Part shown: in pieces, positions 15,262-18,646 of the stretch
Position numbering within the stretch: the stretch's first letter is position 1
Layout: each line of letters starts with the position of its first letter
Source: Gymnodinialimonas sp. 202GB13-11
Lineage (GTDB): Bacteria; Pseudomonadota; Alphaproteobacteria; Rhodobacterales; Rhodobacteraceae
Length of the DNA: 64,000 nt
Assembly: GCF_040932485.1 (NCBI RefSeq)
Contig: NZ_JBFRBH010000001.1
Coordinates: 2,294,001 to 2,358,000 of the forward strand
Reading direction: 5' to 3'
Position numbers and translations under genes: made by a program
The notes under the pieces: model-generated
Told to the model about the DNA's origin: nothing
The model's database searches: none
Seen by the model: only the letters and a program-made list of their open reading frames with translations

Positions 15262-17163
15262 ATGGCAGACGCCACGCTCTCAGGGCACGAGGGACACGAC
15301 CGCCCGAACTTCTTTGTTCGGTGGTTCATGTCCACCAACCACAAAGACATTGGTATCCTTTACCTCTTCACCGCAGGCCTTGTCGGCCTCGTGTCGGTGG
15401 CTTTCACCGTCTACATGCGGATGGAGCTGATGGAACCGGGTGTGCAGTACATGTACATCCCGTTCGAAGCCGGTGTTGACGGCGTTCAATCCATTTTCGC
15501 CAGCCTGGGTGAGGCTTTGGCGGCTGCTGGCGGGGGCACGAACGCCTTCGCGGATCAGCTTTCCAGTCTTGAGGGCACGCTGACCAGCGCAGCGCAAACC
15601 ATTGATGGCGAAGCCATGGTGGTGGTCGAAGGCGGCCTGCGAGCCGAAACGGTTGCGGCGTTTGAGACCATGATCGCAAGCGCCAACCCTGCAGAAGCCC
15701 AGGCTTTGTTGGGCGCAATGGACCAGTTGGACGGCAACCCCGACGGCCACCTGTGGAACGTGATGATCACGGGCCACGGCGTTTTGATGATGTTCTTCGT
15801 CGTTATCCCCGCCCTCTTCGGCGGCTTCGGCAACTACTTCATGCCGCTGATGATCGGCGCGCCTGACATGGCGTTTCCGCGCCTGAACAACCTGTCCTAC
15901 TGGATGTATGTCGCGGGCACCTCGCTGGCCTTCTGCGCCACGTTCATCGACGGCGGGGCCGGCCCGGGCTGGACCTTCTATCCGCCGATCTCGGCTCAAG
16001 GGGTTGAGACCTCTCGCGCGGTGGACTTTGCGATTTTCGCCATCCACGTCTCGGGTGCGTCGTCGATCCTCGGCTCGATCAACTTCATCACCACCTTCCT
16101 GAACATGCGCGCCCCCGGCATGACGCTGCACAAAGTGCCGCTCTTTGCCTGGTCCGTTTTCGTCACGGCATGGCTGCTTCTGCTGTCGCTGCCGGTTCTG
16201 GCGGGTGCCATCACCATGCTGCTGACCGACCGCAACTTCGGCACGGCCTTCTTCGATCCGGCCGGTGGCGGGGACCCGATCCTGTTCCAGCACATCTTCT
16301 GGTTCTTCGGTCACCCCGAGGTTTACATCGTGATCCTGCCCGCGTTCGGCGTGATCTCCCACGTTGTGGCGACCTTCTCCAAGAAGCCGATCTTCGGCTA
16401 CCTGCCGATGGTCTACGCGCTGGTGGCAATCGGTGGTCTGGGCTTCGTCGTGTGGGCGCACCACATGTACACGGTCGGCATGACGCTGACGCAGCAGGCC
16501 TACTTCATGGTGGCTACGATGGTGATCGCGGTGCCCACGGGCATCAAGATCTTCTCGTGGATCGCAACGATGTGGATGGGTTCGGTGACGTTCAAGACGC
16601 CGATGCTGTTCGCCATCGGCTTTATCTTCCTTTTCACGCTGGGTGGTACAACCGGCATCATCCTGTCTCAGGCTGGCGTCGACCGGGCCTATCACGACAC
16701 CTACTACGTCGTGGCTCACTTCCACTATGTGATGAGCCTTGGAGCTGTGTTCGGTATCTTCGCCGCCGTCTACTACTGGATGGCCAAGATGTCGGGGCGT
16801 CAGTACCCCGAATGGGCCGGTAAGCTGCACTTCTACGTGTTCTTCATCGGGGCCAACCTGACGTTCTTCCCGCAGCACTTCCTGGGCCGTCAAGGCATGC
16901 CACGCCGTTACATCGACTATCCGGAGGCCTTCGCGCTCTGGAACTGGTGGTCGTCCGTGGGTGCGTTCATGTCCTTCGCATCGTTCATCTTCTTCATCGG
17001 CATCGTGTTCTACACACTGGCCGCTGGCCGTCGCGTGACCGAGCCCGCCTATTGGGGCGATCACGCCGATACGCTTGAATGGACCCTGCCCAACCCGCCG
17101 CCGGAGCACACCTTTGAGGAGCTTCCGACGCGTGAGATGTGGGACAAGCAACCAAACCACTAA
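15262..17163 (+). CDS. ctaD: Cytochrome c oxidase subunit I (aa3-type) with an enlarged helix I-II loop
   Basis: This is the catalytic heme-copper subunit, with 12 helices in the cytoplasmic membrane. Ligands are visible: H172 and H488 for heme a, H486 for heme a3, and H351, H400 and H401 for CuB, with Y355 crosslink, E353, K429, and D202 of the D channel. The C-terminus has the standard [10 protein letters not shown] and [18 protein letters not shown]. Between [14 protein letters not shown] and GHLWNVMIT there are about 98 residues (65-162), where Rhodobacter has about 17. The extra segment is Ala/Gly/Glu-rich and helical-looking. Two near-invariant positions also differ: G171 (usually Tyr) and M197 (usually His). 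An ATG preceded by GGAG supports the start. The next gene overlaps its stop codon. Confidence 0.96.
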
Positions 17164-17645
17164 TGCGCTGGTTTGAGACCACAGCACTGATCTGGATAGG
17201 CGCCCTCATCGGGGGCGCCTATTTTCTATGGACGGAGGCCGGGGCGAATTGGCTGATACAGTCACCTATCGAACGGGCCTTTCACGACACCACCTACATT
17301 GCTGCGCACCAATATTATATGAGACAGCTTCTGCTCATCCTCATCGGTGGGGCGGCTGTTTACGGTGCCATCCTGTGGTTGGGCGGCGCCGCGTTGCGGA
17401 GCATCGCGACTATCGCGGCCATTCTGTGGGGAGCAGCCCTCTGTCTGATGGTCCTTCCACAGCACATCTTCGCGGGAACGGGTATGCCCCGCCGCTATAT
17501 CGACGCGCCTGAAACCATTGTGACTTGGTACTCCGTCGCCAACATCGCCAGCCTGCTGGCAGTGCTTTGTGCCGCTTTTCTGCTTGTCCTACTGGCCATC
17601 GCGGTGGTGCAAAAGCTGCGCGAAGGCGGTCGGGCCATCACATGA
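17163..17645 (+). CDS. COX1 C-terminus-like mini membrane protein 1
   Basis: The 160-residue protein starts with an ATG overlapping the ctaD stop by one base. It has four hydrophobic helices, and its sequence follows ctaD helices IX-XII: ERAFHDTTYIAAH matches [13 protein letters not shown], and [20 protein letters not shown] matches [20 protein letters not shown]. Spacing between these motifs is 58 residues here and 59 in CtaD. H49 lines up with heme a3 ligand H486. The position of heme a ligand H488 is Tyr51. R110/R111 keep the propionate-contacting pair. It looks like a diverged, retained partial duplicate of ctaD. Role unknown: assembly factor, regulatory subunit or heme-handling protein are possibilities. 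Confidence 0.85.
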   Translation: MRWFETTALIWIGALIGGAYFLWTEAGANWLIQSPIERAFHDTTYIAAHQYYMRQLLLILIGGAAVYGAILWLGGAALRSIATIAAILWGAALCLMVLPQHIFAGTGMPRRYIDAPETIVTWYSVANIASLLAVLCAAFLLVLLAIAVVQKLREGGRAIT

Positions 17646-18115
17646 TGCCAATGGCACGCACGTTTCTGAACGCCGCCCTTTTCGCAGGGTTCGCCTTCGT
17701 CCTTTGGGGAATAATCTCGGACCTATCCGGCATTCGGGTCAGCCAGGCCACAGACGAAGGAACCTACGAGGATGCCTACTATGTCGTCGCCCACGTGCAT
17801 TTGATTATGGGCATCTTAACGGCTCTTGCACTGCCAGGGTTGAGCCACCTGTTTGTCCTGCGCAAGGCCGCCCGCGTCTGGATGCTATATGCAAGCTATG
17901 CCTGCCTGTTTCTCAGCCTTGCTGGTATGCTCCTCTGGGCCCATCCTGAATGGATTCTGGGCGATCCGGGGCCATGGCGTTACACCGATTACTCGAACCT
18001 TGCCAACCGCTTCGCTGCCGTTACCTTCACAGGCGTGGCGATGGTTCTGACCGCCAGCGTCACCAGCCTAACCTTGGCTATTCTTGAACTGATCCACCGC
18101 CGCAAATCGACCTGA
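17642..18115 (+). CDS. COX1 C-terminus-like mini membrane protein 2
   Basis: The 157-residue protein has an ATG that overlaps the previous stop (ATGA). Four hydrophobic helices parallel CtaD IX-XII. The segment EDAYYVVAHVHLIMG matches [15 protein letters not shown] and keeps both histidines (H51 and H53) that bind heme a3 and heme a in CtaD. The later loop is degenerate: GPWRYTDYSNLANR in place of [14 protein letters not shown]. It is more diverged than mini protein 1 but the same type. The CuB ligands lie in helices it lacks, so it cannot be an oxidase on its own. ATG 17645 or 17651 could also serve as start. Confidence 0.82.
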   Translation: MMPMARTFLNAALFAGFAFVLWGIISDLSGIRVSQATDEGTYEDAYYVVAHVHLIMGILTALALPGLSHLFVLRKAARVWMLYASYACLFLSLAGMLLWAHPEWILGDPGPWRYTDYSNLANRFAAVTFTGVAMVLTASVTSLTLAILELIHRRKST

Positions 18116-18120
18116 CGACA

Positions 18121-18618
18121 ATGCCGATCCAATCCGCCGATCCCGACCCGACCCCCAAAGGTCCCCCGCGCCTGCACCTTGTGCTGACGCCCTACAAAAG
18201 CCTCACGCCCGAAGGGTTCGTGTGGTTCATCGGCGTGACCGCCGCGCTGATTTCCGTACCTTTGTTCTCCATCCTCGGCACCTCCGTCTTCTGGGCGCTT
18301 TTGCCCTTCCTGATCGCAGCGATATGGGGCGTGTGGGCAGCGCTGAAACGGTCATGGCGCGATATGGATCTCTATGAGGAAGTCACTGTCTGGGATGACC
18401 TGATCCGCATCGAACGGCACGAGCGCAAACGCGACATGAAGGATTGGGAGGCAAACCCCTATTGGGTCCGTGCCACGCTCCACACTAAGGGCGGGCCGGT
18501 GCCGAACTACCTGACGCTCACCGGCGGTGCACGCGAAGTAGAGTTGGGCCGGTTCCTGACCCCATTGGAACGGGTGGAGCTCAAGGGTCTGATCGAGAAA
18601 GAATTGCGCGCCGTCTGA
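18121..18618 (+). CDS. DUF2244 membrane protein
   Basis: The 165-residue protein has two adjacent membrane helices (about 30-70) and a cytoplasmic C-terminal domain with SWRDMDLYEEVTVWDDLIRI, HERKRDMKDWEANPYWVR and a final LTPLERVELKGLIEKEL. This is DUF2244, often found near cytochrome oxidase genes in alphaproteobacteria. It lies five bases after the second COX1-like mini gene and closes the ctaD operon. Its role is unknown; a link to oxidase assembly is inference from gene neighbourhood. Confidence 0.85.
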   Translation: MPIQSADPDPTPKGPPRLHLVLTPYKSLTPEGFVWFIGVTAALISVPLFSILGTSVFWALLPFLIAAIWGVWAALKRSWRDMDLYEEVTVWDDLIRIERHERKRDMKDWEANPYWVRATLHTKGGPVPNYLTLTGGAREVELGRFLTPLERVELKGLIEKELRAV

Positions 18619-18646
18619 CCTCTGCCAAACGGCGCGCAGTCGTCGT

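Follow-up and report, generated by a model that had tools for sequence, protein, structure and literature searches.

Two small genes that follow ctaD in the window (the 64,000-nucleotide stretch of DNA analysed here) are, to judge by their sequences, members of a genuine family, non-catalytic paralogues of part of CtaD, that is rare, old and under selection. The ctaD gene itself (15262..17163, + strand) encodes a full-length aa3-type cytochrome c oxidase subunit I of 633 residues, which matches the Pfam COX1 profile from position 1 to 436 of 436 (2.6e-149) and CtaD_CoxA at 9.6e-199. Copy A (17163..17645, + strand, 160 aa) starts with an ATG at 17163 that has one base in common with the ctaD stop codon (TAATG), and the ATG of copy B (17642..18115, + strand, 157 aa) lies at 17642 within the stop of copy A (ATGA), an overlap of four bases. 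These start and stop positions agree with the preliminary description, which had placed both genes here and had each overlap its upstream neighbour. Directly after copy B comes a gene for a DUF2244 integral membrane protein (18121..18618, + strand; Pfam PF10003, 1.6e-40), and from this layout ctaD, A, B and the DUF2244 gene would apparently form one operon. At 18605..18638, where the DUF2244 gene ends and before a convergent gene, a stem of 15 pairs followed by a T-rich tail may close that putative operon; the scan matched it on the minus strand, and the frequency of terminator-like sites in the region is not above that in shuffled sequence. A scan of the region found no sigma-70-like promoter. 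A profile built from the small proteins gave three matches in the whole genome, namely copy A, copy B and CtaD, and the SURF1 and Cox11 genes lie 1.6 Mb from the locus (C1:672812 and C1:671261). As side observations, the DUF2244 gene is often next after ctaD in Rhodobacteraceae loci, and in the window's CtaD (15262-17163) helices I and II are separated by a long insert; at the loci read, full CtaD frames run from 552 to 838 residues counted stop to stop (L084 being the longest).

Both copies have significant colinear similarity to CtaD helices IX-XII. BLASTP against the window's CtaD gave 3e-16 for copy A and 1e-11 for copy B as single comparisons, phmmer against all PDB sequences gave 1.8e-13 and 2.4e-6, with every match at E <0.01 being the C-terminal third of a cytochrome oxidase subunit I, and the NCBIfam CtaD_CoxA profile gave 1e-9 and 1.4e-10. 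These searches bear out a resemblance that had previously been read from the letters. Seven small proteins combined in a profile headed by copy B match CtaD 467-577 at 99.2%; copies A and B gave no match to each other by BLASTP. In Pfam PF00115 they score 29.9 and 25.5 bits, both below the curated cut-off of 34.8 that the window's CtaD passes, and in TIGR02891 they reach 37.6 and 40.5 against a cut-off of 670.75 that the window's CtaD, at 661.2, narrowly misses too. Nothing in the BLASTP or phmmer alignments of either copy corresponds to helices I-VIII, and the CuB ligands (helices VI-VII) and the helix II haem a ligand are missing from both. Since the CuB helices are absent, neither copy can itself be an oxidase, as had been argued from the start. 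Taken as paralogues of the CtaD tail, copies A and B are close to certain on these comparisons.

The two copies keep different residues of that tail. Copy A (ERAFHDTTYIAAHQYY) retains HDT, PRRYID and a His at the haem a3 position, with Tyr at the position of the haem a His. Copy B (EDAYYVVAHVH and DPGPWRYTDY) retains both haem histidines in AHVH together with RYTDY, and has EDA for HDT, the His of HDTYY having become Glu, and PWR for PRR. The helix X haem ligands HxH are complete in copy B and incomplete in copy A. The Tyr of copy A, the two histidines of copy B and its missing PRR had been read correctly in the preliminary description. AlphaFold models, made from an input of the seven small proteins with no CtaD row, predict four long helices in each copy: 2-23, 40-73, 76-104 and 116-159 in copy A (mean pLDDT 78.3, pTM 0.65) and 2-36, 42-75, 79-100 and 118-156 in copy B (mean pLDDT 73.0, pTM 0.63, no residue reaching pLDDT 90). 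In the model of copy A, HDT starts helix 40-73 and PRRYID immediately precedes helix 116-159, while residues 33-39 fall below pLDDT 50. Taken alone, the models place the motifs of both copies at the predicted helix ends expected from CtaD.

What the family keeps was assessed over 100 columns that are at least 97% invariant in 148 CtaD tails, using 22 representatives (the near copies J_G006_A, J_G006_B and J_G008 were left out); 71 columns had a residue in 15 or more of these. The median column is retained at 31%. In members found by profiles that themselves contain both motifs, DTYYV is retained at 80-90% (D 18/20, T 17/20, Y 16/19, Y 16/20, V 17/20) and P-RY-D at 67-86% (P 18/21, R 14/21, Y 14/21, D 15/22). 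DTYYV lies where helix X begins and P-RY-D precedes helix XII, both in periplasmic-side loops of CtaD. The haem a3 His and the haem a His are each kept in 8/21, and the His preceding DTYYV and the first Arg of PRR each in 11/21. The retention of motifs against that of ligands suggests that the family keeps the periplasmic-side pocket and the subunit-II face of CtaD and not its haem ligands; the demands of the fold may be all that preserves the contacts between the two loops. Individual members depart from the pattern: the slot members of G010 and G180 are missing both motifs, that of G181 is missing DTYYV, and in the short members of G115, G194 and G305 the PRR motif is gone.

We take DTYYV and P-RY-D to be residues 369-373 and 437-442 in bovine numbering, and the oxidase in which Arg481 is numbered below to be that of Rhodobacter. 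Asp369 is a Mg ligand. In the bovine oxidase, according to excerpts of PMC10194837 and PMC5947679, Asp364, His368 and Arg438 take part in a Mg-water cluster, Asp364 and His368 form bonds with the haem a3 propionate, and a water-mediated link joins Arg439 to subunit II residue Glu198, which bridges Mg and CuA. A salt bridge between Arg481 and a propionate is described in part of PMC4321873, and His411 is given as the haem a3 ligand in a passage of PMC8617209.

Descent was compared for 21 small proteins, each of which shares 15-39% identity with the tail of its own CtaD. That identity lies within 0.03 of the median identity to 148 CtaD tails, and by identity the protein's own CtaD ranks 19th among them at best and 146th at worst, so is never the nearest. 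In a tree of the 21 with 35 CtaDs, from which four of 25 small proteins were left out (G253, J_G010, G180 and G181), 20 of the 21 group together (87/96) with L088 outside, and no small protein adjoins its own CtaD. A clade joining the small proteins of the genus with its own CtaDs is disfavoured (AU p 0.02). On these ranks and this test a recent duplication in the own lineage was rejected. A single clade of all 21 is not rejected (p 0.244) but occurs in only 4% of bootstrap trees, in a bootstrap that had not settled; long branches meet in this tree, long-branch attraction is a real danger, and the family may have had one origin or several. In G115, G194 and G305 the small proteins have a short form in common and the CtaDs form a group too, a pattern suggestive of inheritance. 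Mapped on a larger CtaD tree, the trait is clustered but patchy: it takes 17 changes, compared with 21.1 in shuffles, and at least six of the 17 are demanded by well supported branches; three rows with an unclear slot stood in that tree outside the label count, and broken copies were scored as present. No young free-standing copy of the tail was seen among the small proteins compared. Longer CtaD-like frames exist in G021 (301 aa) and G280 (313 aa), the former being a second ctaD frame (L176:1057-1962) that has no N-terminal part within the stretch read.

The small proteins are old and under purifying selection. Pairwise dN/dS, calculated with our own NG86 script, is 0.34 for copy A and 0.22 for copy B between G000 and G006, and 0.34 between G011 and G008, these being the three closest pairs; the CtaD tail gives 0.04-0.07 and DUF2244 gives 0.12-0.19, so that the small proteins of the closest pairs stand at 5-8 times the CtaD value. 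More distant pairs are higher, at 0.38 (G011/G005) and 0.55 (G008/G005), and copy A of G000 and of G006 gives 0.65 and 0.68 against G011, where synonymous sites are much changed. The preliminary description had called the two genes retained, diverged partial duplications. Homology, the position beside ctaD and the dN/dS of 0.22-0.34 uphold retention and divergence, but the duplication did not take place in the own lineage.

The small genes are rare and patchy, being kept in a minority of lineages. Within the genus, a profile search found them in five of 13 species, the own one included, with two copies each in G000 and G006 and one each in G011, G008 and G005. G010 has a frame in the same slot that begins MRWYE like the others, is without the motifs and reaches 2e-6 with a wider profile; at the loci read in G001, G003, G007, G009 and G012 the DUF2244 gene is directly next, with no small frame between. 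In the family we surveyed 394 genomes, one per genus except two of the own genus, and re-searched 83 of them in full. A relative stands directly behind ctaD in at least 13 other genera of Rhodobacteraceae (G032, G085, G108, G115, G180, G181, G194, G202, G253, G292, G305, G320 and G336); the longest frame of G181 starts with TTG, and the DUF2244 gene is at a greater distance in G108 and G305. Six further relatives (G159, G242, G257, G331, G362 and G373) lie away from ctaD with no common neighbourhood, G159 and G373 being broken and G257 perhaps so. Where ctaD loci were read regardless of a small gene, four of 85 other genera had one (1/19, 3/27 and 0/39, one of the 40 loci of the last set having no room), and two of the four were broken.

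Among 80 named ctaD loci, 78 of them with room and some genera represented several times, six have a clear small gene: L067 (a Marivivens MAG), L087 and L128 (MAGs), L088 (Octadecabacter dasysiphoniae), L095 (Pseudooctadecabacter jejudonensis) and L138 (Roseicyclus mahoneyensis), with L097 weak. Three of the six are already among the 13 genera, L067 being the locus of G320, L087 that of G202 and L095 that of G181. Searching loci with copy A alone confirmed 0 of 66 stretches, and searching with the alignment returned mainly CtaD itself. Spread beyond Rhodobacteraceae was rejected: among class-level genomes with a ctaD match, 0 of 20 loci carry a relative behind ctaD (best E 0.16). The gene next to ctaD in 16 of these 20 loci is one we take to be ctaB. 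Other frames were met at family loci. A 372-aa frame at L173:168-1286 (G320:C10) has several hydrophobic stretches and ends in DTYFVVAQTHY and GMPRRFGDY; it is a predicted second, larger degenerate subunit I-like protein. Between ctaD and DUF2244 there are hydrophobic frames of 190 aa in L177 (G004) and 167 aa in L091 that have no match at 1e-3, the L091 frame giving 1.3e-3 with the wider profile; both are possibly further diverged members. In L061 (G082) the slot, 281-712 after ctaD, is taken by an unrelated-looking membrane protein, presumably YeeE/YedE-like.

Tentatively, and with less than even confidence, we favour the reading that copies A and B act while the aa3 oxidase is being built, are dispensable, and are likely placeholders or docking partners through a surface that faces subunit II. 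Their expression, their partners and this role in assembly are what we infer, the role itself being the best of several guesses. The piece of ctaD for helices IX-XII, in some members probably preceded by a further helix, would have been copied behind ctaD well before the genus arose. Judging by the overlapping starts, the small proteins would be produced along with CtaD. Each would then offer its subunit-II-facing surface to CtaD, to CtaC or to their metal and haem chaperones, holding the place until the real tail and the cofactors are in position. Subunit I of Paracoccus passes through at least three assembly intermediates, in which CtaG comes first, then Surf1c, and the smaller subunits join at the end (PMC5249081); a substitute tail, or a protein that holds subunit II, would fit ahead of that final stage. 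Copies A and B may have divided tasks, given that A keeps HDT, one haem His and PRR, and B both haem His, the D and one Arg. SURF1 occurs in 39 of 40 genomes and Cox11 in 40 of 40, with and without small genes (the genome lacking SURF1, G202, is 71% complete); replacement of either by the small proteins was rejected, as both are present alongside. The patchiness, the motif loss in some members, the off-locus relatives and the higher dN/dS of distant pairs count against the assembly reading. A broader proposal is doubtful: that Rhodobacteraceae and kin made a class of assembly proteins out of the enzyme's own tail, which would stand in for that tail or dock the CuA/Mg site of subunit II through DTYYV and P-RY-D and so order cofactor insertion, here with two copies keeping different residues. 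The small proteins may also be a regulatory module.

The main rival is that the small proteins are accessory structural subunits of the finished aa3 oxidase or of a supercomplex, sitting permanently at the edge of CtaD or of subunit II in the manner of other small lineage-specific subunits. Such subunits could well overlap ctaD, be membrane proteins, evolve fast and in lineage-specific fashion and be missing from most relatives; however, the best kept columns are those of the inner pocket of CtaD that faces subunit II, which in the finished enzyme is already filled, and we think this explanation possible but hardly probable. Haem holding and decay are less likely. Were the proteins functionless fragments decaying after a partial ctaD duplication, their rarity, patchy occurrence, long branches and motif loss in some members would be expected. 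The preliminary description had named degradation by stops as a sign of decaying pseudogenes; broken frames do occur in G032, G108 and G292, but those of the other 10 of the 13 genera are open. These open frames and the dN/dS of the three closest pairs argue against decay, as do frames kept open after divergence to 15-39% identity with CtaD, the 80-90% retention of DTYYV and the overlapping starts, and we regard decay as improbable.

Haem A holding or delivery would have the helix X histidines serve as half-sites carrying haem to CtaD. Copy B has both of them and copy A that of haem a3, and the small proteins of G011 and G008 keep both together with PRRY. Across the representatives, however, the retention of each His is near the median column, the helix II ligand and the CuB helices are absent, and SURF1 is present anyway. 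Haem holding, suggested earlier, is thus not supported as a family trait, and we judge it quite improbable. It is very improbable that the genes are a translational spacer, whose translated RNA would set the dose of ctaD and DUF2244 with the protein as a by-product: the tight overlaps from ctaD to A and from A to B would suit this, but the protein-level constraint and the two conserved motifs would be left unexplained.

A protein with CtaD's subunit-II-facing face, encoded right behind CtaD, is a natural probe of assembly order. The family is also a bacterial pseudo-enzyme made from part of a membrane enzyme, and among its natural variants some have lost the haem ligands, some PRR and some both motifs. 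No described function had been known for such proteins, and among the matches listed from the open literature (subscription journals and preprints being outside its scope) no described counterpart of free-standing CtaD-tail proteins was found.

Of known systems, the nearest is CtaD/Cox1 itself (PF00115, TIGR02891), with which the small proteins have helices IX-XII, DTYYV and PRRYID (copy A nearly all of both) and the gene neighbourhood in common; unlike it they are about 160 aa long against 633, have no CuB helices and no helix II haem a ligand, and fall below both cut-offs. Surf1 and CtaG/Cox11 resemble them in a possible role beside CtaD in assembly (PMC5249081 and excerpts of PMC9145763), but are separate families and are additionally present in carrier genomes. 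COX4-like proteins, too, are small membrane proteins, encoded within COX operons or close to them; as part of PMC4013037 describes them they are related to subunit IV, whereas the only subunit that copies A and B match is subunit I. Mitochondrial cox1-c, the separated C-terminal piece of cox1 reported by Gawryluk and Gray 2010 as described in excerpts of PMC5664110, also puts a C-terminal part of subunit I on a gene of its own. Gene fission of that kind, with a parent CtaD without the missing part, was rejected here on the full Pfam COX1 profile: cox1-c is a true fission in which about 25 residues complete a shortened cox1 (same excerpts), whereas in this locus CtaD is complete and the extras are four-helix paralogues.
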